Made by a program: the position numbers and the translations under genes. DNA of 64,000 bases from assembly GCA_002256245.1 (NCBI GenBank), contig NKIU01000001.1, positions 734,232 to 798,231 on the forward strand, read 5' to 3'. This document shows positions 2,891 to 63,243 of this stretch, one piece after another. The notes beneath the pieces are model-generated. The model was not told the origin of the DNA. It did no database searches and was given only the letters and a program-made list of their open reading frames with translations. Source of the stretch: Pseudorhodobacter sp. PARRP1 (GTDB taxonomy: Bacteria > Pseudomonadota > Alphaproteobacteria > Rhodobacterales > Rhodobacteraceae). Every line of letters starts with the position of its first letter. The first letter of the stretch is position 1.

Positions 2891-2919
2891 AAGCGCCATC
2901 GCATGTGCGAAAGGCGCTT
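2891..2919 (+). promoter_or_regulatory. nested hairpin in the dnaA leader
   Basis: The outer arms AAGCGCC (2891-2897) and GGCGCTT (2913-2919) enclose the inner arms TCGCA (2899-2903) and TGCGA (2906-2910) with a 2-nt loop. The hairpin ends exactly where the GGGGAAG ribosome-binding site begins, 16 nt before the dnaA ATG. It could affect dnaA translation or mRNA stability. Its presence argues against the alternative upstream start at 2905, which lies in its loop. Confidence 0.55.
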
Positions 2920-2934
2920 GGGGAAGACAAGAGA

Positions 2935-4299
2935 ATGACGCACGAGGCCTGGGGCAAGGTATGCGAGACGCTGGCGAAGCGGATCGGCAAGAACAATTTT
3001 ACCAGCTGGATTGAACCCCTGCGTTGGGCTGGTCTGCGCGATGGTGTCGCGCGTTTCGAAGTGCCGACCACGTTTTTTGGCGATTGGGTGTCGCGCAACT
3101 ATTCCGACCATATCCTTGGTCTCTTGAACGCCGAGGGCCACGCCGCTGGCCGCGCCGAGTTCTTCGTGCCGCTGAACGCGCCTGCCGCTGCTCCCGCGTC
3201 AGAAAAACCCAGCCGCCCCACCGCCGCCAAACCGGCCCGCGCCCGCAACGATGAAGAATTGCCGGGGGCGACCCTGGACGCCCGCTTTACCTTCGACAGC
3301 TTTGTCGTCGGCAAGCCCAACGAATTGGCCCATGCTGCCGCACGTCGTGTCGCCGAAGGTGGCCCAGTCACCTTCAACCCGCTGTTCCTTTACGGCGGCG
3401 TCGGTTTGGGCAAAACCCACCTGATGCACGCGATTGCCCATGAACTTCAGTCGCGCCAGCCGCATCTGCGCGTGCTGTATCTGTCCGCCGAGCAATTCAT
3501 GTATCGTTTCGTGCAAGCCCTGCGCGACAAGCAGATCATGGATTTCAAGGAACTGTTCCGCTCGGTTGACGTGCTGATGGTGGATGATGTGCAATTCATC
3601 GCTGGCAAGGATTCCACGCAGGAAGAATTCTTCCACACCTTCAACGCCTTGATTGATCAGAACAAACAGATCGTGATTTCCGCCGACCGCGCGCCGGGCG
3701 AGATCAAGGATCTGGAAGACCGCATCAAATCCCGCCTGCAATCGGGCCTTGTCGTCGATCTGCACCCGACCGACTACGAACTCCGCTTGGGCATCCTGCA
3801 ACAAAAGGCCGAATTCTACCGCCAGCAATACAAGGGCCTTGCGATTTCCACCGGCGTTCTGGAATTCCTTGCCCACCGCATCACCACCAATGTCCGCGTG
3901 CTGGAAGGCGCTTTGACCCGCCTGTTCGCTTTCGCCAGCCTCGTGGGCCGCGAAATCACACTGGAACTGGCGCAAGATTGCCTTGCCGACATCCTGCGCG
4001 CGTCGGATCGCAAGCTGACCATCGAAGAAATCCAGCGCAAGGTGGCGGAGCATTACAACATCCGCCTGTCCGATATGATCGGCCCGAAACGCCTGCGCAA
4101 CATCGCGCGTCCGCGTCAGGTGGCGATGTATTTCGCCAAGCAACTGACCTCGCGCAGCCTGCCGGAAATCGGCCGCCGCTTTGGCGGGCGCGATCACACA
4201 ACGATCATGCATGGCGTGCGCAAGATCGAGGAACTGATGACCACCGATTCGCAGCTTTCCGACGATCTGCAACTGTTGCGGCGTCAGTTGCAGGCTTAA
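2935..4299 (+). CDS. dnaA: chromosomal replication initiator DnaA
   Basis: The 454-residue protein shows all DnaA domains. An N-terminal helical region begins MTHEAWGKV, followed by a variable linker (about 85-110). The AAA+ ATPase has Walker A GGVGLGKT (154-161, K160) and Walker B with D217-D218. The DNA-binding domain carries the signature GGRDHTT (417-423). DnaA-ATP opens the origin and also acts as a transcription factor. I chose the ATG at 2935 because GGGGAAG lies about 10 nt before it and the N-terminus then matches relatives; an ATG at 2905 would add ten residues. dnaN follows after 122 bp. Confidence 0.97.
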   Translation: MTHEAWGKVCETLAKRIGKNNFTSWIEPLRWAGLRDGVARFEVPTTFFGDWVSRNYSDHILGLLNAEGHAAGRAEFFVPLNAPAAAPASEKPSRPTAAKPARARNDEELPGATLDARFTFDSFVVGKPNELAHAAARRVAEGGPVTFNPLFLYGGVGLGKTHLMHAIAHELQSRQPHLRVLYLSAEQFMYRFVQALRDKQIMDFKELFRSVDVLMVDDVQFIAGKDSTQEEFFHTFNALIDQNKQIVISADRAPGEIKDLEDRIKSRLQSGLVVDLHPTDYELRLGILQQKAEFYRQQYKGLAISTGVLEFLAHRITTNVRVLEGALTRLFAFASLVGREITLELAQDCLADILRASDRKLTIEEIQRKVAEHYNIRLSDMIGPKRLRNIARPRQVAMYFAKQLTSRSLPEIGRRFGGRDHTTIMHGVRKIEELMTTDSQLSDDLQLLRRQLQA

Positions 4300-4421
4300 G
4301 GCGCGCCGGGCGGGCTTGACCTGCCCCGGAATCGTCCTCAAAGTCCCGAAAATGCTTGTGAACCGGCCAAAACCGGATAGTTTCGACGTCCCCGACCGGG
4401 GGTGCCGCCAAGGGGAACGAC

Positions 4422-5540
4422 ATGAAGATCAGCATCGAACGCGCAACTCTGCTTAAGGCGCTGGCACAGGCGCAATCGGTGGTGGAACGCCGCAACACCA
4501 TTCCGATCCTGGCCAACGTGCTGATCGAGGCCGAAGGCAACACCGTGTCCTTCCGCGCCACCGATCTGGATATCGAAGTGGTCGATCGCGCGCCTGCCAT
4601 GGTGGAACGCGCAGGCGCGACCACGGTTTCCGCCGTGATGCTGCATGAAATCATCCGCAAGTTGCCCGATGGCGCGCTGGTCGCCCTGACCGAAGACGCC
4701 GCTTCGGGTCGTCTGACCATCGCCGCAGGCAAATCGACCTTCAGCCTTGCCACCCTGCCGCGCGAAGATTTCCCGGTGATGGCAACCTCCGAGTATTCGT
4801 CAAACTTCGCAGCCCCCGCCCCGGTGCTGCGCCGCCTGTTTGACAAAGCGAAGTTTGCGATTTCGACCGAGGAAACCCGCTATTACCTGAACGGCGTCTA
4901 TATGCACGTCTCGACCGGGGACGTGGGCGCGGTGCTGCGCTGTGTGGCGACCGACGGCCACCGCCTTGCCCGCATCGACGCGCCACTGCCGGAAGGCGCG
5001 CAGGGCATGCCCGGCGTGATCGTGCCGCGCAAGACCGTGAATGAATTGAAGAAACTGCTCGATGACGATTCCGCGATCATTGCGGTGTCGGTGTCAGAAA
5101 CCAAAGTGCGCTTTGCCACGCCGCTGATCACCCTGACCTCAAAGGTTATCGACGGCACCTTCCCCGACTACACCCGCGTCATCCCGACCGGCAACACCCG
5201 CCGTCTGGAAGTCGATGCCACCGAATTTGCCAAAGCGGTGGACCGCGTGGCGACCGTGTCGTCGGAACGCTCGCGCGCGGTGAAGCTGTCGTTGGATGAA
5301 GACCGCCTGATCCTGTCGGTCAACGCCCCCGATTCCGGTGCCGCCGAGGAAGAACTCGCCGTGGCTTATGGCGATGAACGGCTCGAGATTGGCTTTAACG
5401 CCAAATACCTGCTGGAAATCGCCAGCCAGGTGGACCGCGAAAACGCCGTGTTCCTGTTCAACTCCTCGGGTGATCCGACCCTGATGCGCGAAGGCAATGA
5501 CATGTCGGCGGTTTACGTCGTCATGCCGATGCGGGTTTAG
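4422..5540 (+). CDS. dnaN: DNA polymerase III sliding clamp (beta)
   Basis: The 372-residue protein begins MKISIERATLLKALAQ and has the three repeated clamp folds expected from its length. It contains the conserved SVVERRNTIPILANVL segment and ends in YVVMPMRV, close to the family C-terminus. As a ring dimer it tethers polymerase III to DNA and serves as a docking site for repair and initiator-inactivation proteins. The ATG at 4422 follows AAGGGGAACG. It lies downstream of dnaA in the same direction, as in most bacteria; hairpins separate it from recF. Confidence 0.97.
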   Translation: MKISIERATLLKALAQAQSVVERRNTIPILANVLIEAEGNTVSFRATDLDIEVVDRAPAMVERAGATTVSAVMLHEIIRKLPDGALVALTEDAASGRLTIAAGKSTFSLATLPREDFPVMATSEYSSNFAAPAPVLRRLFDKAKFAISTEETRYYLNGVYMHVSTGDVGAVLRCVATDGHRLARIDAPLPEGAQGMPGVIVPRKTVNELKKLLDDDSAIIAVSVSETKVRFATPLITLTSKVIDGTFPDYTRVIPTGNTRRLEVDATEFAKAVDRVATVSSERSRAVKLSLDEDRLILSVNAPDSGAAEEELAVAYGDERLEIGFNAKYLLEIASQVDRENAVFLFNSSGDPTLMREGNDMSAVYVVMPMRV

Positions 5541-5554
5541 GGACGGGTTAAACT

Positions 5555-5592
5555 GGGGGCTAGCCCCCCTAACGGATTTGTTTCAAATCCGT
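5555..5592. terminator. two hairpins between dnaN and recF
   Basis: A perfect 14-bp palindrome GGGGGCTAGCCCCC (5555-5568) is followed by the arms ACGGATTTG (5572-5580) and CAAATCCGT (5584-5592) with a TTT loop. They lie just after the dnaN stop and may end or process the dnaA-dnaN transcript. The CTAG-centred palindrome recurs at 58189-58206. Confidence 0.5.
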
Positions 5593-5601
5593 ATGCCCCC
5601 A

Positions 5602-5622
5602 GAGTATTTTTGCCAAGATGAA
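5602..5622 (+). repeat. dispersed GAGTATTT-type repeat, copy 1
   Basis: This copy begins GAGTATTTTTGCCAAGATG. Related copies occur at 28803-28874 (inverted pair), 44836-44856, 53576-53597 and 62389-62446 (inverted pair). All are intergenic. This one ends 11 nt before the recF start codon. Confidence 0.7.
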
Positions 5623-5632
5623 GGGTTAGAGC

Positions 5633-6715
5633 GTGAGTGGTCTGGCTATTACCGCGCTGACGCTTTCGCATTTCCGCAGCCACAAGGCGGCGCGACTGGT
5701 GTTTGATGGTCGTCCGGTGGCGATTGTTGGGCCGAATGGTGCGGGCAAGACCAACATCCTGGAAGCCGTATCGCTGCTGTCGCCCGGTCGGGGGCTGCGG
5801 CGTGCGGCAGCCGATGAGATTGCGCGCAAGCCCGAAAGCCTCGGCTGGAAGATCACCGCCGATCTGCGTGGTTTTGGGGCTGCGCATCAGGTTGAAACCT
5901 GGGCCGAGGGTGGCGATACCCGCTCTGTCCGCATCGACGACAAGGCCGCGACGCAGTCCGCCTTGGGCCGCATCGCCCGCGTTTTGTGGCTGGTGCCTGC
6001 GATGGACCGTTTGTGGATCGAGGCCGCCGAGGGCCGCCGCCGCTTTCTTGACCGTATGACTTTGTCTTTCGCCCCCGACCATGCCGAGGCCGTTCTGGCC
6101 TATGAAAAAGCCATGCGCGACCGCAATCGCCTGCTGAAAGACCAGATCAGCGACACGCATTGGTATGGCGCTTTGGAAAGCCAGATGGCCGTCGCTGGCG
6201 CGCAGATCACCGCCAACCGTCAAGCCGCCCTGACCCGCCTGCGGGCCGCCCAAGCGGGTGCCGAAACCGCTTTCCCCCGCGCTGATCTGACCTTGATCGG
6301 CGAGGATGCCGCTGACCTTTCCGCAGCGCTGTCCGACAACCGCCGCCGCGATATGGCCGCTGGCCGCACGCTGATCGGCCCGCACCGCGCCGATATGTCT
6401 GCGATCTACGCCGCCAAAGCCGCCCCCGCCGAGCAATGCTCGACCGGAGAGCAAAAGGCGCTGCTGATCAGCCTGATCCTTGCCAACGCCCGCGCGCTGG
6501 CGGCCGATCTGGGGGCCGCGCCGATCCTGCTGCTGGATGAGGTGGCCGCCCATCTGGATACCACCCGCCGCGCCGCCCTGTATGACGAACTTTGCGCATT
6601 GGGCGCGCAAGCCTTGATGACCGGCACCGAAGCCGCCTTGTTCGACAGCCTTGGGTCGCGGGCGCAAAGCTTCACAATCACCGAAACCGATGGCATCTCA
6701 CAGGTCAGCCCATGA
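5633..6715 (+). CDS. recF: DNA replication/repair protein RecF
   Basis: The 360-residue SMC-like ATPase has Walker A GPNGAGKTN (about 34-42), the ABC-type signature STGEQKALL (about 264-272) and Walker B ILLLDEVAAHLD (about 296-307). RecF helps load RecA at gaps through RecFOR. The start is GTG at 5633, in the context GAGCGTGAGTGG; no other start keeps the typical LxxFRS N-terminus. It overlaps the next gene by 4 nt (ATGA), implying translational coupling. Confidence 0.95.
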   Translation: MSGLAITALTLSHFRSHKAARLVFDGRPVAIVGPNGAGKTNILEAVSLLSPGRGLRRAAADEIARKPESLGWKITADLRGFGAAHQVETWAEGGDTRSVRIDDKAATQSALGRIARVLWLVPAMDRLWIEAAEGRRRFLDRMTLSFAPDHAEAVLAYEKAMRDRNRLLKDQISDTHWYGALESQMAVAGAQITANRQAALTRLRAAQAGAETAFPRADLTLIGEDAADLSAALSDNRRRDMAAGRTLIGPHRADMSAIYAAKAAPAEQCSTGEQKALLISLILANARALAADLGAAPILLLDEVAAHLDTTRRAALYDELCALGAQALMTGTEAALFDSLGSRAQSFTITETDGISQVSP

Positions 6716-7236
6716 TCGAAATCATCCCCGAATGGGCGCTGACACAGCAGGACGAAGCGCAGATCAACACCCTGATCACCCGCTGTTTTGGCGATGATTT
6801 CGACACCCGCAGCTATCATTTGCAACGCCCGCACCTGCGGGTGATCCACCGCGACGACGGCCAGATCACCGCCCATATCGCCATCCTGCTGCGCGCCGTC
6901 CGCCTTGGCCCCGACATGGTTGACACCGCCGGTCTGGCCGAGGTCTGCACCCACCCCGACCATCGCGGCCAAGGCATCGCCAGTCGCCTGCTGCAAACCG
7001 CGATCCGGCATTGTCGCACCAGCCCGGCCCGGTTCCTGACCCTGTTCGGCACCGCGCCGCTTTATGCAGGCCACGGCTTTGCGCCGCACAGCAACATCCT
7101 GACCTTTGTTGCGATGACCAACACCCACACCACCGCCATCGTCACCGAACCGGCGCAAACCCTGATGGTGCTGCCGCTGGGCGATCAGATCTGGCCCGCC
7201 AGTGCCCCGCTGGACATGCTCGGCCCGCTCTTTTAA
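6712..7236 (+). CDS. GNAT-family N-acetyltransferase
   Basis: The 174-residue protein carries the acetyl-CoA pyrophosphate loop HPDHRGQGIASRLL (about 83-96) after the beta-strand VDTAGLAEVC, the core of the GNAT fold. It should transfer an acetyl or acyl group from CoA to an unknown amine. The ATG at 6712 overlaps the recF stop; a longer in-frame start inside recF (6592) is unlikely because it would extend into the RecF ATPase-coding region. It stands between recF and gyrB with a LysE-type exporter, so it is likely co-transcribed with recF. Confidence 0.85.
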   Translation: MIEIIPEWALTQQDEAQINTLITRCFGDDFDTRSYHLQRPHLRVIHRDDGQITAHIAILLRAVRLGPDMVDTAGLAEVCTHPDHRGQGIASRLLQTAIRHCRTSPARFLTLFGTAPLYAGHGFAPHSNILTFVAMTNTHTTAIVTEPAQTLMVLPLGDQIWPASAPLDMLGPLF

Positions 7237-7258
7237 GCACGGGCGCGGGGGGACAAGC

Positions 7259-7885
7259 ATGACCGTGACATTTTACGAATTGATGCTTTACGCGGGCGGC
7301 ATGGCCTTGCTTTGGGTGATCCCCGGCCCGGTCTGGGTGGCGCTGACGGCGCGGGCTTTGTCGGGCGGGTTTGCAAGCGCCTGGCCGCTGGCGATTGGCG
7401 TGGCGTTGGGCGATCTGATCTGGCCGATGGCCGCGATTTTCGGGCTGACGTGGATCGTCTCGGTCTATGCCGATTTCCTGCACGCGCTGCGCTGGGTGGC
7501 GGCTGTGGTGTTCGTGGTCATGGGTATCCTGCTGATCCGCAAGCCCGCCGTGGCCCCCACCACCGATGGCCGCATGACCAAACCGGGCATGTGGGCGGGC
7601 TTTGCGGTGGGTGTGGCGGCGGTGATCGGCAACCCCAAAGCCATCCTGTTCTACATGGGCGTGCTGCCGGGGTTCTTTGATCTGTCGCGCGTCAAGGCCC
7701 CCGACATCGCGGCGATCCTGCTGGTTTCGGCCACCGTCCCGATGCTGGGCAACATCGGCCTTGCGCTGTTTCTGGACCGGGCGCGCAAGCTGCTCTCCAG
7801 CCCCGAAAGCATCCGCAAACTGAACCTGATCTCGGGGATTTTGCTGATCGGCGTGGGCATCGTGATTGCGGCGTCAAACCGCTAA
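7259..7885 (+). CDS. LysE/RhtB-family amino acid exporter
   Basis: The 208-residue protein has about six hydrophobic segments. The LysE-family hallmark IPGPVWVALTARALSGG lies near the N-terminus, and GNPKAILFYMGVLPGFFD near residues 121-138. Such inner-membrane carriers export amino acids or related metabolites. The ATG at 7259 follows GGGGGGACA, whereas the longer ORF from 7202 has no ribosome-binding site and adds a charged, non-membrane extension. The gene follows the acetyltransferase by 22 nt and is probably in the same operon. The substrate is unknown. Confidence 0.87.
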   Translation: MTVTFYELMLYAGGMALLWVIPGPVWVALTARALSGGFASAWPLAIGVALGDLIWPMAAIFGLTWIVSVYADFLHALRWVAAVVFVVMGILLIRKPAVAPTTDGRMTKPGMWAGFAVGVAAVIGNPKAILFYMGVLPGFFDLSRVKAPDIAAILLVSATVPMLGNIGLALFLDRARKLLSSPESIRKLNLISGILLIGVGIVIAASNR

Positions 7886-7901
7886 ATCTTGGGCCCAAGG
7901 C

Positions 7902-10410
<2,509 letters not shown>

Positions 10411-19129: not shown

Positions 19130-19325
19130 GGCGAAGGCCATCGCCTTCGCCATGCGATGCAGATGCCGCTGAAACTGCCGGGCCTCCAAGGCCCGGCCAG
19201 CGCCCGACCCGCCCTCGGCGGGCGCTTCTCGCCCGCCGGGTCGGACGCTGGCCTTCCTGTGTGATTGCTGAACCGACTACAGGGGCAAACCGCTCACGCG
19301 CGCGGGGAAACGCAATGCGTTTCCC
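19130..19325. repeat. palindromic mosaic element, copy 3 (order A-B-C-D)
   Basis: A has GGCGAAGGC and GCCTTCGCC around CATC (19130-19151). B has CCGGGCC and GGCCCGG around TCCAA (19178-19196). C is the 55-bp core (19197-19251) with outer ends CCAGCG and CGCTGG. D has GGGAAACGCA and TGCGTTTCCC (19305-19325). It lies 7 nt after the LacI gene. The remaining 200 bp up to ureD hold no gene; TATAAT at about 19400 could be a -10 box, but no -35 partner was found. Confidence 0.85.
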
Positions 19326-19526
19326 GTCTCCGCCCGGCGCAGACGGCCACGAAGGCTGTGAATGTCGATCCAGCTCCACGCCTTTAGCGTTCCGCATATA
19401 ATTTGTGCGCTTCGCCGCTATTTCAGGCGGCAACCCGCGCCGCTGTGCCGATTTCCGCGCCATTCTTCGGCTGCACATTTTCGCCCTCGCCGCGTGGTGC
19501 TGTAGTCGCGGGCAAGGAGTCCCGTG

Positions 19527-20342
19527 ATGCTGGCCACCCCCGCCACCCCGATGCAGCGCAGCCAAGGTGCTGCTTTTGCCAGCTTTCGCTGTCTGGATGG
19601 CCGTGCGCGGCTGGCTGATCTGGCGCAGCAAGGCTCGGCCAAGGCGATGCTGCCGCGCGTTTCAGGCGTGCCAGAGGTGGTGTTTCTGAACACCTCGGGC
19701 GGGCTGACCGATGGCGATAACCTGTCCTATCGGCTGGAGTTGGGCGCAGACTGCCGCGTCACCGCCACCACGCAAACGGCCGAGCGGGTCTATGCCAGCC
19801 GGGGTGCGCCCGCGCGGGCAAAGGTGCAGGCCAGCGTGGGTGCAGGCGCACATCTGGATTGGCTGCCGCAAGAGACTATCCTGTTTCAATCCAGCCACTT
19901 GGCGCGCGATACCCAGGTTGATCTGGCACCCGGCGCAAGCTGCCTTTTGTCTGAAACCGTGGTTCTGGGGCGTCATGCGATGGGCGAAACCCTGACCGAT
20001 GCAAGGCTGACCGATGCGCGCATGGTGCGGCGCGGCGGCGTTCCGGTTTGGGCCAGCACGCTGCGCATTGATGCCAGCGTGCTGGCCGATGCCTCTGCCG
20101 CCCTGCTGGGGCAGGCGCGCGGTTTTGCGGTGATCGCACTGATGGCCCAAGGCGCGGAAGACGCCGTGGCCCGCCTGCGCGCCGTGCTGACCCATGCGGG
20201 CTGCCACTCCGCCGCCTCGGGCTGGGATGGCAAATGTATTGCCCGGATCACGGCCCGCGATGGCTGGCCGCTCAAACAACAAATGGCGCTGGCGCTGGCG
20301 GCTTTGCGGGCTGGCCCGCTGCCCCGCGTCTGGCAGATGTAG
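19527..20342 (+). CDS. ureD: urease accessory protein UreD
   Basis: This 271-residue protein has the UreD pattern: FLNTSGGLTDGDNL near residue 53, QTAERVYAS near 87 and DWLPQETILFQ near 111. UreD (UreH) binds apo-urease and, with UreF and UreG, guides nickel insertion. I chose the ATG at 19527, 9 nt after AGGAG; the GTG one codon earlier is possible. It is the first gene of a nine-gene operon, with ureA beginning 9 nt after its stop. Confidence 0.93.
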   Translation: MLATPATPMQRSQGAAFASFRCLDGRARLADLAQQGSAKAMLPRVSGVPEVVFLNTSGGLTDGDNLSYRLELGADCRVTATTQTAERVYASRGAPARAKVQASVGAGAHLDWLPQETILFQSSHLARDTQVDLAPGASCLLSETVVLGRHAMGETLTDARLTDARMVRRGGVPVWASTLRIDASVLADASAALLGQARGFAVIALMAQGAEDAVARLRAVLTHAGCHSAASGWDGKCIARITARDGWPLKQQMALALAALRAGPLPRVWQM

Positions 20343-20351
20343 GAGGCTGCG

Positions 20352-20654
20352 ATGAACCTGACCCCGCGAGAGCGTGAGAAACTGCTGATCTCGGTCGCCG
20401 CCATGGTCGCTAGGGGCCGTCTGGCGCGTGGCGTCAAGCTGAACCACCCCGAAGCCGTGGCGCTGATCACCGATTTCGTGGTTGAAGGCGCGCGCGATGG
20501 CCGCACCGTGGCCGATCTGATGCAGGCAGGCGCGCATGTGATCACTGCCGATCAATGCATGGATGGCATCCCCTCGATGATCCATTCGGTGCAGGTCGAG
20601 GCAACCTTTCCCGACGGGACAAAGCTTGTCACCGTCCACCACCCCATTCGCTAA
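20352..20654 (+). CDS. ureA: urease gamma subunit
   Basis: At 100 residues this is the usual size for UreA. It begins [13 protein letters not shown] and contains [10 protein letters not shown] and the conserved end TVHHPIR. With UreB and UreC it forms the nickel enzyme that splits urea into ammonia and carbamate. An AGGAGG motif precedes the ATG. The ureA-ureB-ureC order is interrupted by ureJ, placed between ureA and ureB. Confidence 0.96.
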
Positions 20655-20663
20655 GTGGCTGAT

Positions 20664-21221
20664 ATGAAACGTATCCTTTCGACATTGCCGCTTCTGTTGA
20701 TCCCCTCAGCGGCCCTTGCGCATCCGGGGCATGGGTTCGGGTTTCAGGCCGGGTTCCTTCACCCCTTCACCGGAACCGATCACCTGCTGGCGATGGTCGG
20801 CGTCGGTCTGTGGGCAGCGATCTTGGGCGGCCGGGCGCGGTGGGCGCTGCCTGCGGGCTTCCTTGGCATGATGGCCCTCGGCGGTGCCTTTGCAATGAAT
20901 TTGGGGCTGGGGGCCGCTGCGGCGGCGGTGGAGCCTGCGATTATCGCCTCGGTGATCCTGTTCGGCGCTGTCGTGGCGCTGGCCCTGCGCGCGCCTTTGG
21001 CGATCGCCCTGCCGCTGGTCGGCCTGTTTGGTCTGGCGCATGGGGCGGCGCATGGGGCCGAGATGGTCGGCAACGGGCTGGCCTTTGGCGCGGCCATGCT
21101 GACCGCAACGGCGCTGCTGCACGGCGCAGGCTTGGCCTTGGGCCTGACCCTGAACAGCAAACTCGCCCGCGCTTTGGGTGGTGTGACAGCGGTGGCGGGC
21201 CTTGCGCTCGCCTTCGCGTAA
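20664..21221 (+). CDS. ureJ: HupE/UreJ-family nickel permease
   Basis: The 185-residue membrane protein begins with a signal peptide (ending ALA-HPGHG). It carries the HupE/UreJ motifs [25 protein letters not shown] near the N-terminus and [11 protein letters not shown] near 120, whose histidines are thought to bind nickel. About six membrane segments follow. It likely imports Ni2+ for urease. The ATG at 20664 leaves a clean signal peptide; a GTG at 20655, directly after the ureA stop, is possible. Confidence 0.9.
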
Positions 21222-21231
21222 GGGGGCCGCG

Positions 21232-21552
21232 ATGACCCCGCCCAAAATCATACCGGGAGAAATCTTCCCCGCCGAAGGCACGATAGAGTTGAACGCAGGC
21301 CAGCCCAGCATCACCCTGATGGTCGCCAACACCGGCGATCGCCCGGTGCAAGTGGGCAGCCACTATCACTTCGCCGAAACCAACCCCGGCCTGAGTTTCG
21401 ACCGCACCGCCGCGCGTGGGATGCGTCTGGATATCGCCGCAGGCACCGCCGTCCGCTTTGAACCGGGCCAAAGCCGCGAGGTGCGGCTAACCCCCTACGG
21501 CGGCCTGCGCCGGGTGTTCGGCTTTAACGCTGCCGTGATGGGGGATCTGTAA
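21232..21552 (+). CDS. ureB: urease beta subunit
   Basis: The 106-residue product begins [16 protein letters not shown] and shows the UreB core: [22 protein letters not shown] and the C-terminal [15 protein letters not shown]. It packs against UreC in the urease trimer. The ATG at 21232 is preceded by GGGGGCC; the ORF extends back to 21202, but that part overlaps ureJ and is not UreB-like. ureC starts directly after its stop. Confidence 0.96.
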
Positions 21553-23259
<1,707 letters not shown>

Positions 23260-23329
23260 CGGTTTTTGTCATGGGCGATTTTCCACCGCAGATTTATCAT
23301 AGGGCCTGCTCAACGCAAAGGTTCCCCCT

Positions 23330-23962
23330 ATGAAACTGCGCATTCCCCTCGCCCTCTGCCTTGCTCTGGCCCCGCCCGCCCATGCCGATTGTGTCACCCC
23401 TGAAAGCCTCGCCAAAGGAGTGACCTTCAAGCGCGAGGATGGCCACACCGGCATCATCCGCGCGGCGGGCAAGAGGTTTGAAATCGACTATGCCAGCAAT
23501 TCCAACGGCATATGGCGCGACAAGCGCCTGTCGCGGCTGGGGATTTACGACGCCGAATGGCAATCAACGCCCACCAATGAAAACTACGTCGGCGGCGGTC
23601 CGGGCGGTGATTTCACCTTCAAATTCGCCGGCAAACCCCCGCTCCCCAAGGCCGGCACCACATGGTCCACCACCGTATCCGAACGCAAAAGCCTAGAGGC
23701 TGGCCTGCAATCCGGCCCGGTGATCACCCGCACCAGCTACAAAGTCACCTACAGCTACATGGCGCCCAAAACCGCGAAACTGTCGGGGTGCAGCTATATA
23801 ATCCAGCCGGTTGAGGCGACGTTTACCAACAAGCAAACCGACCTGACCCGCCGCTTCATCTACTTCCCCGACCTCGGCTTTGGCTTGGAAACCCGCGTGA
23901 TCGACCGCAAGGGCGATGCCAGCCGCGAGTTGGGCCTGACGGCGCTGAAGGCGGTGAAATGA
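23330..23962 (+). CDS. secreted protein of unknown function, paralogue 1 in the urease operon
   Basis: This 210-residue protein has a signal peptide (MKLRIPLALCLALAPPAHA) followed by DCVTPESLAKGVTF. It is about half identical by eye to the next gene; both share LGIYDAEW, GGPGG, an SGC(S/T)Y segment with a conserved Cys, and the block TDLTRR(F/W)IYFPDLGFGLET. I recognise no domain. Two conserved cysteines suggest a disulfide in the periplasm. An AAAGG ribosome-binding site precedes the ATG. It starts 70 nt after ureC and overlaps the next gene by 4 nt, so it lies within the urease operon. Confidence 0.75.
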   Translation: MKLRIPLALCLALAPPAHADCVTPESLAKGVTFKREDGHTGIIRAAGKRFEIDYASNSNGIWRDKRLSRLGIYDAEWQSTPTNENYVGGGPGGDFTFKFAGKPPLPKAGTTWSTTVSERKSLEAGLQSGPVITRTSYKVTYSYMAPKTAKLSGCSYIIQPVEATFTNKQTDLTRRFIYFPDLGFGLETRVIDRKGDASRELGLTALKAVK

Positions 23963-24612
23963 TGCGCGCCCTGATCGCCCTGCTGCTGACCGCCACCCTT
24001 GCTCTGGCCGCCCCGGCACTTGCCGATTGCGTCACCAAGGCGTCTTTGGCGAATGGCGTGACCTTCACGCGCGAGGATGGCCGCGCGGGCCTTATCCGCA
24101 CTGAAGGCAAGCGCTTTGCCATTGATTACGCAGTAAATTCTGGCACCGCGTGGCAAGACAAGCGCCAATCCTGGCTGGGGATTTACGATGCCGAATGGGT
24201 ATCCGTGCCCACCGACACCTATCAGGCCGAAGGCGGGCCGGGCGGCACTTACAGCTACCGTTTCGCCAGCCAACCACCGATGCCTGCGCCCGGCACAACA
24301 TGGGATACCACGGTGACAGAACGGGGCGCGCAGGCGGTGCGTTTCAAACTTGGCCCCGTCGCAATCTCGCAGCGTGACCGCACCAGCTATGCCGTCAACT
24401 ACCGTTTCATGGCCGAAGCGGCTGTGAAGATTTCCGGCTGCACCTACCGCGCCATGCCGGTTGAGGCGGTATTCAAGAACCAGACCACAGACCTGACCCG
24501 GCGCTGGATTTACTTCCCCGATCTGGGTTTTGGTCTGGAAACCCAAGTGGTTGACCGCAAGGGCAGCGCCAGCCGCAACCTTGGTCTGACCTCACTTACC
24601 CCGAAAGGATAA
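23959..24612 (+). CDS. secreted protein of unknown function, paralogue 2 in the urease operon
   Basis: This 217-residue paralogue of the preceding gene has its own signal peptide (ending in LA-DCVTK) and the same layout: DYAVNSG, WLGIYDAEW, GGPGGTYSYRF, SGCTYRAMPVEAVF and TDLTRRWIYFPDLGFGLETQV. The two probably arose by tandem duplication. Function unknown; a periplasmic or surface role is inferred. The start is ATG at 23959 (overlap ATGATG with the previous stop) or the ATG directly after it. ureE begins 3 nt after its stop, so both paralogues are likely translated together with the urease genes. Confidence 0.75.
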   Translation: MMRALIALLLTATLALAAPALADCVTKASLANGVTFTREDGRAGLIRTEGKRFAIDYAVNSGTAWQDKRQSWLGIYDAEWVSVPTDTYQAEGGPGGTYSYRFASQPPMPAPGTTWDTTVTERGAQAVRFKLGPVAISQRDRTSYAVNYRFMAEAAVKISGCTYRAMPVEAVFKNQTTDLTRRWIYFPDLGFGLETQVVDRKGSASRNLGLTSLTPKG

Positions 24613-24615
24613 GCC

Positions 24616-25098
24616 ATGCTCCCCGCCCGATCTTTGCTGCGAAACGCCGCCGCTGGCGCGATGGATCGGGTGGTGCTGTCCTATGACGAACGCTTCCTGC
24701 GCCGAAAACGGCTGACCTGCGAAAGCGGGGCCAGCTTCATGGTCGATCTGGCCGAGACGATCTCGGTCGAAGACGGCGATGCGTTTCTGCTGGATGATGG
24801 CCGCAAGGTCGCGGTGGTCGCTGCCGAAGAACCCGTGGTGCGGGTCGAGGGGCATCTGCCGCGCCTCGCATGGCATATCGGCAACCGCCACACCCCCTGT
24901 CAGGTGGCCGAGGGTCATCTGGTGATCCGCCGCGATCCGGTGATTGAGGCGATGTTGAAGGGCCTTGGCGCGACCCTGACCCTGCACATCGCCCCCTTCC
25001 GCCCCGAAGGCGGCGCTTACGGCCACGGCCGCACCATGGGGCATGATCATGGCCCCGCTGGCCATTTCGCGCTGAACTTTGGGGGTGGGCATGGTTGA
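24616..25098 (+). CDS. ureE: urease accessory protein UreE
   Basis: The 160-residue protein has the UreE N-terminal domain (RKRLTCESGASFMVDLAE) and the metal-binding domain with LAWHIGNRHTPCQV. It ends in a His-rich tail (HGRTMGHDHGPAGH and GGGHG). UreE delivers nickel to the UreDFG-urease complex. AAAGGATAAG before the ATG is a good ribosome-binding site. Its last codons overlap the start of ureF. Confidence 0.95.
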   Translation: MLPARSLLRNAAAGAMDRVVLSYDERFLRRKRLTCESGASFMVDLAETISVEDGDAFLLDDGRKVAVVAAEEPVVRVEGHLPRLAWHIGNRHTPCQVAEGHLVIRRDPVIEAMLKGLGATLTLHIAPFRPEGGAYGHGRTMGHDHGPAGHFALNFGGGHG

Positions 25099-25732
25099 CC
25101 CGACCGACCGCCTGCGGCTTGTGCAATGGCTCTCGCCAGCCTTCCCGATCGGCGCTTTCGCCTATTCGCAGGGGCTAGAGGTGGCGATCACCGATGGCGA
25201 CATCCGCACGGCGTCCGACCTAGAGGCATGGATCGCCGCCATCCTGCGGCATGGCTCTGGCCGAATTGACGCGATTATCCTCGCCCATGCCCGCCAGCCG
25301 CAAGCCGATCTGGCGGGGCTGACGGCCCTGATCCTCGCCCTCGCCACCAGCGCCGAGCGGGTAACGGAGTTGCAAGAACAAGGCCGCGCCTTCGCCCTTG
25401 CGATCAGCGCTATCACCGGGGTCGATCATCCCCCCCGCCCCTACCCCATCGCCGTAGGGGCTGCGACCGCGAGCCTGAACGTGCCCACCGCCGAAGTCCT
25501 CACCCTCTGGCTGCAAGGGCTGGCCGCGCAACTGACCTCTGCCGCAGTGCGTTTCGTCCCCCTTGGCCAGACCGATGGCCAAAAAGTGCTGGCCCGCCTT
25601 GCCCCCCGCATCACCGCTTTGGCCGCCGAATACGCTGAAGCGCCGCTCTCAGCCCTCCATTCCAGCGCCATCCGCGCCGATATCGCCGCGATGCGCCATG
25701 AAACGTTACCCGTGCGGATATTCCGCACATGA
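25091..25732 (+). CDS. ureF: urease accessory protein UreF
   Basis: The 213-residue helical protein begins [30 protein letters not shown], the typical UreF start. It later has [13 protein letters not shown] and ends LPVRIFRT. UreF bridges UreD and UreG in the nickel-insertion complex and gates the GTPase. I chose the ATG at 25091, preceded by GGGGGTGGG, which overlaps the ureE stop by 8 nt; a start at 25079 would add four residues. It overlaps ureG by 4 nt. Confidence 0.94.
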
Positions 25733-26379
25733 CTGTTAACGCTAAGGATTTTCCGCAAATGACGAACCCAAACGGCCCCCTGCGCGTCGGCATCGGCGGC
25801 CCCGTCGGTGCGGGCAAGACCACGCTGACCGAACATCTCTGCCGCGCCTTGGCCAACCGCTGCTCGATGGCGGCGATCACCAATGACATCTACACCCGCG
25901 AGGACGCCGACTATCTGACCCGCGCGCAAGTGCTGCCCGCCGCCCGCATCCGGGGGGTGGAGACCGGCGGCTGCCCGCATACCGCGATCCGCGAAGATGC
26001 CAGCATCAACCTTGCTGCCGTCGCCGATCTGCGGGCGAACTTCCCCGATCTTGACCTGATCCTGATCGAATCCGGCGGCGACAACCTTGCCGCCACCTTC
26101 AGCCCCGAACTTGCCGACATCACCATCTACGTCATCGACACCGCCGCAGGCCAAGACATCCCGCGCAAGCGCGGGCCGGGCGTCACGCGCTCTGACCTGC
26201 TGGTCGTCAACAAAACCGACCTTGCGCCTTACGTCGGCGTTGACCTGACCCTGCTTGAATCCGACACCAAAACCGCCCGCGCCCAGCGGCCCTATGTGCT
26301 GGCACAACTTCGGCACGGCAAGGGGATCGAAGCCGTGGTGGCGTTTCTGCAACGCGAGGGCGGGCTGGTGCTGCGCTGA
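25729..26379 (+). CDS. ureG: urease accessory GTPase UreG
   Basis: The 216-residue SIMIBI GTPase has the P-loop [11 protein letters not shown] (about 19-29), the metal-binding triplet in [12 protein letters not shown] (about 79-90), the Walker B-like [11 protein letters not shown] and the guanine-specificity motif [15 protein letters not shown] hydrolysis by UreG powers nickel delivery to urease. The ATG at 25729 overlaps the ureF stop (ATGA); the ATG at 25759 (MTNPNG) gives the more usual length. It is the last gene of the operon, followed by an inverted CCCCGG-type pair. Confidence 0.96.
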
Positions 26380-26393
26380 CCCCCCAATACCCC

Positions 26394-26459
26394 GCCGCCC
26401 CGGACTTGATCCGGGGCCTCATGCTGTGAACTGAGGCCCCGGATCAAGTCCGGGGCGGC
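26394..26459. repeat. inverted pair of CCCCGGACTTGATCCGGGG units
   Basis: Two 27-bp units, at 26394-26420 and 26433-26459, face each other across 12 nt. Each also folds on itself (CCCCGGA/TCCGGGG). The pair lies between the convergent ureG and the ProC-like gene and is placed to act as a two-way terminator. Confidence 0.85.
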
Positions 26460-26472
26460 GACGGAGATGCTT

Positions 26473-27225
26473 TCAACGCCCCGGCACCATACGCGCCAGC
26501 ACCGCATCCATTCCCGCATCCCAAGCCGCCAGCGCGCCCTTGTCTTCCAGCACCGCCACCAGCTGCGCCGTGATGCCGCCCTTGGTCGTCACGCCATCGG
26601 CAATCGCATCCAGCCCGGCATCCGATTGCAAGAAAACCTCGGCATTGCCGCGAAACGTCTCGGCCACCAGCACACGCGCCACGCCCTCCTCCAGCCCCTG
26701 CGCCACATACCAGCGCATCAACTGCCGCAGCAGGTAAAACGACGCCCCCGACATCGCGCCAAACACCGCCGCCGTCTCATAACTTTGGGCATCGTCGAAC
26801 CGATGCACCGGGCCAAGCCGCGCCAGAAACGCCGCCCAATCGGCATCATCGGGAAACAGCAGCGACGGCCCAACCGAGAACGCATTGGCGAACCCCGGCA
26901 TCATCGTGCAAAACGCCCGCGCCGGGGCCACCGCTGCGGCCAAAGCCCCCCACGCGGCCCCCGCCATCGCCGAACATACCGATTGTCCGTCGCGAAACTG
27001 CAAACCGGCCAGCACCGAAGGCCCCGTCGCCGCAGGCAGGCACACCAGCACCAGCGCGCACTGATCCACCACCGCCTGATTGCTTCTGGCAACCACACAC
27101 CCAAACCGCGCCGCCAGCCGTTCCGCCTTGCCGCCCGAACCGGGGCTAAGAACAAACTCGACCCCATGCGCCCCCTGCACCAGATACTGCGCCAGATGGC
27201 CGACGCCAAGAATGCCGATCTTCAC
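26473..27225 (-). CDS. pyrroline-5-carboxylate reductase-like oxidoreductase
   Basis: The 250-residue protein has the NAD(P)-binding motif GILGVGHLAQ at the N-terminus, CTMMPGFANAFSVG near residue 106 (the ProC substrate loop region) and the ProC-type signature VTTKGGITAQLVAVLE near 216-231. It therefore belongs to the ProC superfamily and should reduce a cyclic imine with NAD(P)H. Its sequence diverges from housekeeping ProC, so the substrate may differ. The start is GTG at 27225, overlapping the stop of the aminotransferase gene (GTGA), so the two are translationally coupled. Confidence 0.78.
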   Translation of the reverse strand: MKIGILGVGHLAQYLVQGAHGVEFVLSPGSGGKAERLAARFGCVVARSNQAVVDQCALVLVCLPAATGPSVLAGLQFRDGQSVCSAMAGAAWGALAAAVAPARAFCTMMPGFANAFSVGPSLLFPDDADWAAFLARLGPVHRFDDAQSYETAAVFGAMSGASFYLLRQLMRWYVAQGLEEGVARVLVAETFRGNAEVFLQSDAGLDAIADGVTTKGGITAQLVAVLEDKGALAAWDAGMDAVLARMVPGR

Positions 27226-62446: not shown

Positions 62447-62534
62447 GCCGGAGGCTTCGACGCTGATGCCAATCGCAGGTTTACGATCATTAACCATACC
62501 AGCGTTCGCCACAATGTTTGCCTTATAAAACAAT

Positions 62535-62551
62535 GGTCCCGAGTTGGGACC
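62535..62551 (-). terminator. hairpin identical to the ade terminator
   Basis: GGTCCC (62535-62540) and GGGACC (62546-62551) around GAGTT repeat the hairpin found after ade. The minus-strand side is T-rich (ATTGTTTTAT). No gene ends here on that strand, so it may stop antisense transcription from the lolA region. Confidence 0.45.
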
Positions 62552-62634
62552 ACGCACAAACCTCTCTCGGCACCTCTCCGCCAAGTGAATGTAAGGGGGG
62601 TGCAGCCCGGCGCGCGCTGGCCTATATAGGGGGG

Positions 62635-63243
62635 ATGAAAACGCTTCGCCGCCTCCTCGCCCCGCTCGCCCTGATCGCTCTGGCCGCCCCTGCTTGGGCG
62701 GATAAAATCCCGCTGAACGATCTGTCGGCCTATCTCAACAGCCTCGGCACCGTTGAGACCGAGTTCACCCAAGTGAACGCCGACGGCTCGATCGCCACCG
62801 GCAAGCTGATCATCAAGCGCCCCGGTCGGGTGCGGTTTGAATACGCCCCGCCCGACAAATCGCTGGTGCTGGCCTCCAGCGGCAACGTGGCGATTTTCGA
62901 TGCCAAGTCCAATCAGGCGCCCGAGCAATACCCGCTGAAGCGCACCCCGCTGAACCTCATCCTCGCCGCCAACGTCAACCTTGGCAGCGCCAAGACCGTG
63001 GTGTCGCATACCGAGGAAAAGAACACCACGCAGGTGGTGGCCCAAGACCCGCAGCACCCCGAATACGGCCAGATCGCGCTGGTGTTCACCGCCAAACCGA
63101 CCACGCTGCGGCAATGGGTGATCACCGACGATCTGGGTCAGCAGACCACGGTGATCCTTGGCGATCTGAAAGCAGGCGGCAATTACAGCGCCAACCTGTT
63201 CAACATCACCGACGAGATCGAACGCCGCGGCGGTGGCCGCTGA
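62635..63243 (+). CDS. lolA: outer-membrane lipoprotein carrier LolA
   Basis: The 202-residue protein has a signal peptide ([22 protein letters not shown]). The LolA fold follows, with [34 protein letters not shown] near residues 37-70, VASSGN-like and [12 protein letters not shown] at the end. It carries lipoproteins through the periplasm to the outer membrane. The ATG at 62635 follows a run of G (AGGGGGG) with almost no spacing, an unusually close ribosome-binding site. It is convergent with the next gene, with a 0-nt gap. Confidence 0.9.

Follow-up and report, generated by a model that had tools for sequence, protein, structure and literature searches.

Between ureC and ureE, the urease operon of Pseudorhodobacter sp. 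PARRP1 carries two overlapping genes for exported two-cysteine proteins, X1 and X2 (X is used below for the protein family that holds both), and relatives of this pair occupy the same position in the urease operons of many other genera. The link between X and urease is real and old. The textbook urease operon consists of structural and nickel-delivery genes, and nearly all of their products act in the cytoplasm. An exported component that keeps returning to a single position, as seen in 29 of 294 sampled genera, offers a concrete lead to an envelope side of urea use. Our preferred reading, to which we give somewhat less than an even chance, makes X1 and X2 disulfide-locked proteins of the envelope, located in or facing the periplasm, that are co-expressed with urease and bind neither urea nor nickel.

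The gene pair and its operon

In the window (the whole stretch of 64,000 nucleotides that was analysed), the operon runs ureD-ureA-ureJ-ureB-ureC-X1-X2-ureE-ureF-ureG, all on the forward strand and with ureJ called by PF04955 (Table 1). X1 begins 70 nt beyond the ureC stop (23259), overlaps X2 by 4 nt (ATGA, 23959-23962), and is followed by an X2 whose stop at 24612 leaves a 3 nt gap before the ureE ATG at 24616. This tight packing was already described in a sequence-only reading of the region, and the coordinates agree with it. The same reading had called the two proteins signal-peptide paralogues with a common motif and conserved cysteines, and this description holds: both are open reading frames, they are 60–62% identical, their signal peptides can be recognized by eye, TDLTRR(F/W)IYFPDLGFGLET lies near the C-terminal end of each, and each mature protein has two cysteines. 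No promoter-like sites were found in 19300-26700, and terminator-like sites in that interval numbered no more than chance would give.

Table 1. Coordinates in the window of the X gene pair, its flanking genes and the protein features discussed in the text
Feature	Position	Strand	Basis or remark
ureC	21553..23259	+	upstream flank of the X pair
X1, exported two-Cys protein, 210 aa, ATG start	23330..23962	+	ORF; first of tandem pair
X1 signal peptide, residues 1-19, cleavage AHA|DC	23330..23386	+	translation, by eye
X1 Cys21 codon, first family-wide cysteine	23390..23392	+	153-sequence comparison
X1 Cys154 codon, second family-wide cysteine	23789..23791	+	153-sequence comparison
X2, exported two-Cys protein, 217 aa, ATG start	23959..24612	+	ORF; second of tandem pair
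X2 signal peptide, residues 1-22, cleavage ALA|DC	23959..24024	+	translation, by eye
X2 Cys24 codon	24028..24030	+	153-sequence comparison
X2 Cys161 codon	24439..24441	+	153-sequence comparison
ureE	24616..25098	+	downstream flank of the X pair; tblastn of relatives

A lipoprotein identity was considered for X1 and X2 and rejected: judged by the lipobox rule, the residue before the cysteine is D in both AHADC and ALADC, and no lipobox is present. One homologue (L123:1676-2317) begins MLISRRSVLSLS, which resembles a twin-arginine (Tat) export signal and is unlike the usual X signal peptide.

The source genome holds a third copy of X, on contig C10, which is 45% identical to X1 and adjoins a PALP gene (cysteine synthase-like) and a class III aminotransferase gene. 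A genome-contig scan with X1 alone found no relative.

Distribution of the family and its place beside ureC

Genomes were surveyed with a profile built from 26 X members (A1), and the resulting counts are lower bounds, with at most 10 first-pass candidates scored per genome. In a draw of 295 genomes from the window's family the profile matched at least 63, in one of 292 from its order at least 71 (among the matches listed, all in the same family), and in one of 289 from its class at least four. Two of these four belong to other families; they scored weakly and had no ure genes in their vicinity. Judged by these sequence matches, X appears to be almost confined to the Rhodobacteraceae, and its named relatives come from Cypionkella, Tabrizicola, Rhodobacter and Pseudorhodobacter records. 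A locus titled Exiguobacterium profundum isolate SSD5 (L124) comes from a MAG; its X gene and urease operon closely resemble those found at L037, in a genome of the window's family, and the Exiguobacterium label looks wrong.

DNA was fetched around every match of the family draw. Of the 63 matching genomes, 29 have X between ureC and ureE in the orientation of both genes (29 of the 60 with a confirmed X ORF); in the DNA from the other three (G003, G096 and G215, E 2e-6 to 7e-4) no X ORF was seen, and these were kept in the 63 but left out of the 60. Over the family draw, chance would place about 0.02 X genes in this slot, assuming some 4000 genes per genome. X adjoined one flank only in four genomes, ureC in one (G018) and ureE in three (G221, G040, G149). 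A second set, taken from the order draw, had X in the gap in 25 of the 46 X genomes that were absent from the first draw. The two draws and seven named loci together gave 61 slots with 71 copies of X, all on the strand of the operon: 52 slots held a single copy, eight held two and one held three. The copies within a slot are only 24–39% identical, the window pair (60%) excepted, and those other tandems must therefore be old.

The sequence-only reading had held that a family living mostly away from urease genes would speak against it, and on this point the outcome is divided. While the family does recur at this position across many genera, X stands only away from ure genes in 27 of the 60 genomes confirmed in the family draw and in 21 of the 46 of the second set, and eight of the 63 matching genomes had no ureC match. 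In the family draw as a whole the ureC query matched 230 of 295 genomes, comprising 53 of the 60 confirmed X genomes vs 177 of the 235 others, a weak excess (Fisher p 0.035, ancestry ignored). One site away from urease recurs, next to genes for a phosphoribosyltransferase and a dihydroorotase-like amidohydrolase. A second conserved home of X, in addition to the urease slot, is thus marked by a dihydroorotase-like gene and by an unnamed protein that occurs at 13 of the 38 non-slot loci (L046, L049, L053, L057, L060, L076, L079, L081 and others). Most urease operons in the Rhodobacteraceae are without X, so that X is not needed for urease chemistry, and the existence of X at other loci, and in genomes that gave no ureC match, argues for a function untied to that chemistry.

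What the slot holds where X is missing was followed in 48 control ureC loci, 47 of them from X-less genomes and the last from a genome whose X lies elsewhere; they comprise L106-L113 and 40 loci chosen among the UreC matches listed, which lean to closer UreC relatives. These loci gave 43 ureC-ureE pairs, none with an X match even at E 1, and in 20 of the 43 the gap exceeded 400 bp. Inserts were called in the operons of 42 loci with a home-made, rough gene caller that recovered 38 of the 42 counted slot copies of X; callers of this kind also served for the neighbours of X at non-slot loci and for the genes of the window. All 38 called X ORFs lay in the ureC-ureE gap on the operon strand, while the 109 other insert ORFs were spread over ureB-ureC (54), ureC-ureE (29), ureA-ureB (23) and ureF-ureG (3), a contrast for which a Fisher p is no more than indicative given the shared ancestry of the loci. 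A second family of small same-strand ORFs recurs in the ureC-ureE gap at 16 loci (for example L106, 8128-8569; L116, 7529-7825; L065, 8354-8605) and was seen by eye in X-less operons too. A DUF1127 identity was considered for these ORFs, which are 84–99 aa long, and was dropped when no Pfam match was found at 1e-3.

The relationships among copies were drawn from an unrooted tree of 89 X copies (L120 and L121 being left out as repeats of L035 and L036), on which gains and losses are not fully separable. The label 'slot' or 'other' changes 13 times on this tree, at least nine of the changes being forced by well-supported branches, and none of 500 shuffles gave a count as low; slot and free copies therefore interleave. 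The slot copy of L102 is nested among non-urease copies, and its presence at the slot is more simply read from the tree as a separate arrival. X2 forms a group with the single-copy X of four Cypionkella loci, to which it is 82–87% identical, whereas X1 falls outside that group, so that the duplication appears older than the split between X2 and Cypionkella. X1 was probably lost from the single-copy Cypionkella loci, as far as the tree indicates, and no remnant of it was found in three of the four. Against the four Cypionkella orthologues X2 has a dN/dS of 0.11–0.14, and this strong purifying selection argues that the X genes are real. X1 has no close orthologue, and its dN/dS vs relatives is 0.32–0.43.

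These data bear on the strongest of the alternatives, in which X is a passenger: the ureC-ureE gap of Rhodobacteraceae urease operons would simply be permissive, and X would be kept there by shared ancestry, unlinked to urea or to envelope stress. The small-ORF family, the wide gaps of many X-less pairs and the restriction of X to other sites in about half of its genomes all sit well with such an account. However, a permissive gap would not lead one to expect that X keeps to one gap and one strand while other inserts scatter over four gaps, that the slot label changes at least nine times with good support and a slot copy is nested among non-urease copies, or that X2 is under strong purifying selection. 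We regard it as rather unlikely. If X were a mere passenger, it would still be a new branch of the poorly understood fold group to which GfcB and EipB belong.

Conserved residues and predicted fold

Sequence searches placed X in no known family. X1 and X2 had no match in Pfam, NCBIfam or PHROGs, the 26 relatives shared no recurring Pfam or NCBIfam family, and the GfcB/YjbF-type family was absent at E 1 from a Pfam scan of those 26. A sequence search of the PDB returned a single match (3esm, E 1.8) that we judged to be chance, and there were no matches in a viral fold library at E 0.001 or better or in a plasmid collection at E 1e-3. A literature search on genes intervening between ureC and ureE and on Rhodobacter urease operons did not find the family, although most subscription papers lay outside that search and absence from print is not thereby shown.

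Among 153 X sequences, both cysteines are present in 152; the exception, L161:6142-6650, lacks the first cysteine and is broken over two frames, and is probably a pseudogene. The other near-invariant residues are Gly, Pro, aromatics (Tyr) and Leu. No His or Met column exceeds 40%, a single acidic column exceeds 50% (D29, at 78%), and mature X2 contains no His. Near-invariant cysteines with no conserved His or Met favour a structural disulfide and disfavour a nickel site, and from this conservation pattern we infer that the two cysteines form such a disulfide after export.

AlphaFold2 models were made for X2 (pLDDT 85.5, pTM 0.80) and for a slot paralogue from L124 that is 31% identical to it (pLDDT 83.5, pTM 0.78), from inputs of window and named-locus sequences that were mostly common to both, so that the two models are not fully independent. 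Both are all-beta with 13–14 strands, and both put the same four solved structures on top: 2IN5, the group 4 capsule lipoprotein GfcB/YmcC; 6NTR, EipB (DUF1849, PF08904); and 4FVS (BDI_3050) and 3FZX (BF2203), YmcC-like exported proteins of Bacteroidales. GfcB/YmcC scored Z 10.1 (152 residues, rmsd 3.9) against the X2 model and 9.4 (151, 4.1) against the L124 model, and EipB 8.8 (165, 4.5) and 9.2 (162, 4.1). The values were 8.1 and 8.1 for 4FVS and 7.7 and 7.8 for 3FZX; the comparison tool itself cautions that a Z near 8 can reflect a common arrangement. LolA chains came next (Z 5.2–6.0), with the L124 model only, and the best Foldseek E-value for X, 5e-3, was borderline. On these models the X fold would be barrel- or spiral-like and nearest to GfcB/YmcC and EipB, which gives a predicted fold to a family that is missing from Pfam and NCBIfam.

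Candidate memberships were tried by sequence and rejected. DUF1849 gave no PF08904 match in the Pfam scans and an hhalign probability of 0.1% for A1 against six DUF1849 members; the YjbF/GfcB family fell at an hhalign probability of 0.8% against E. coli GfcB; and LolA fell for lack of a PF03548 match. Because sequence profiles see no relation and the Foldseek value is borderline, we read the likeness to GfcB and EipB as a shared fold and not as membership.

The compared proteins resemble X to differing degrees. GfcB/YmcC, the closest solved fold, is likewise an exported, small, all-beta protein from a tightly packed operon; it differs in having no sequence similarity to X, in the genes around it (X is flanked in the window by ure genes, not by gfcC and gfcD) and, according to PMC8592465, in being a lipoprotein with a lipobox, whereas X is cleaved at A|DC without one. 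The same paper has GfcB binding GfcC and the outer-membrane protein GfcD (PMC8592465). EipB, the second-closest fold, is periplasmic, and its 14 antiparallel strands in a cylindrical spiral, as described in PMC10787603, compare with the 13–14 of the X models; unlike X it is located near bamA, and it has no sequence similarity to X. That paper also reports that EipB is required for envelope integrity in Brucella and that its deletion sensitises the bacterium to envelope-disrupting compounds, with a part in lipoprotein or outer-membrane protein assembly left undecided (PMC10787603). PF08904 itself matched six of eight genomes from other alphaproteobacterial families and, within the window's genus, none of 13. 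BF2203 and BDI_3050 share the fold group (Z 7.7–8.1) but belong to another phylum, and the PDB sequence search with X did not match them. LolA, a half-barrel carrier, is the weaker match, and the window has its own LolA outer-membrane lipoprotein carrier (PF03548) at 62533-63240, 38 kb from the X pair.

Possible roles beside urease

By analogy of fold and export, X may be a barrel protein of the envelope whose production follows urease expression in those lineages that carry it in the slot. In this organism it would be transcribed as part of the ure operon, its translation would keep pace with that of ureE, and its cysteines would pair as a structural disulfide once exported. Like its fold relatives, the barrel could then hold or escort an outer-membrane client, be it an outer-membrane protein, a lipoprotein, or a lipid or glycan part, and in handling that client would support the outer envelope. 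This function would rise with urease production, presumably at nitrogen limitation or ammonia release. What counts against the envelope reading is that a general role of this kind leaves the strong preference for the ureC-ureE gap unexplained.

A bolder form of the envelope reading would make X a long-standing envelope component of how Rhodobacteraceae use urea: a periplasmic barrel, locked by its disulfide and brought into the slot, in some operons as two or three divergent copies, would adjust the outer membrane for urea entry, ammonia exit or alkaline stress whenever urease is produced. In this full form we think it unlikely. Still less probable is a dedicated accessory of urea uptake, in which X would chaperone or gate an outer-membrane channel or lipoprotein for urea in or ammonia out, much as GfcB works with GfcD. 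The GfcB-like predicted fold and the co-location with urease in 54 genomes of the two draws would suit it, but no outer-membrane protein gene was recognized by eye among the neighbours of X in the window, and X also occurs in genomes without a ureC match. Periplasmic handling of urea or nickel, which the sequence-only reading thought conceivable and in which X would capture either one and hand it inward or to a transporter, is very improbable: a place among the nickel-delivery genes ureE-ureF-ureG and an export signal speak for it, but the residue columns described above offer no conserved metal-ligand cluster, structure prediction, proposed in that reading as a search for metal sites, led instead to the envelope proteins GfcB/YmcC and EipB and not to small-solute binding proteins, and eight X-matching genomes lack a ureC match.

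Elsewhere in the window, look-alikes of dnaA, dnaN, recF and gyrB were seen by eye in that order at 2905-10407, which suggests that the window begins near a replication origin.
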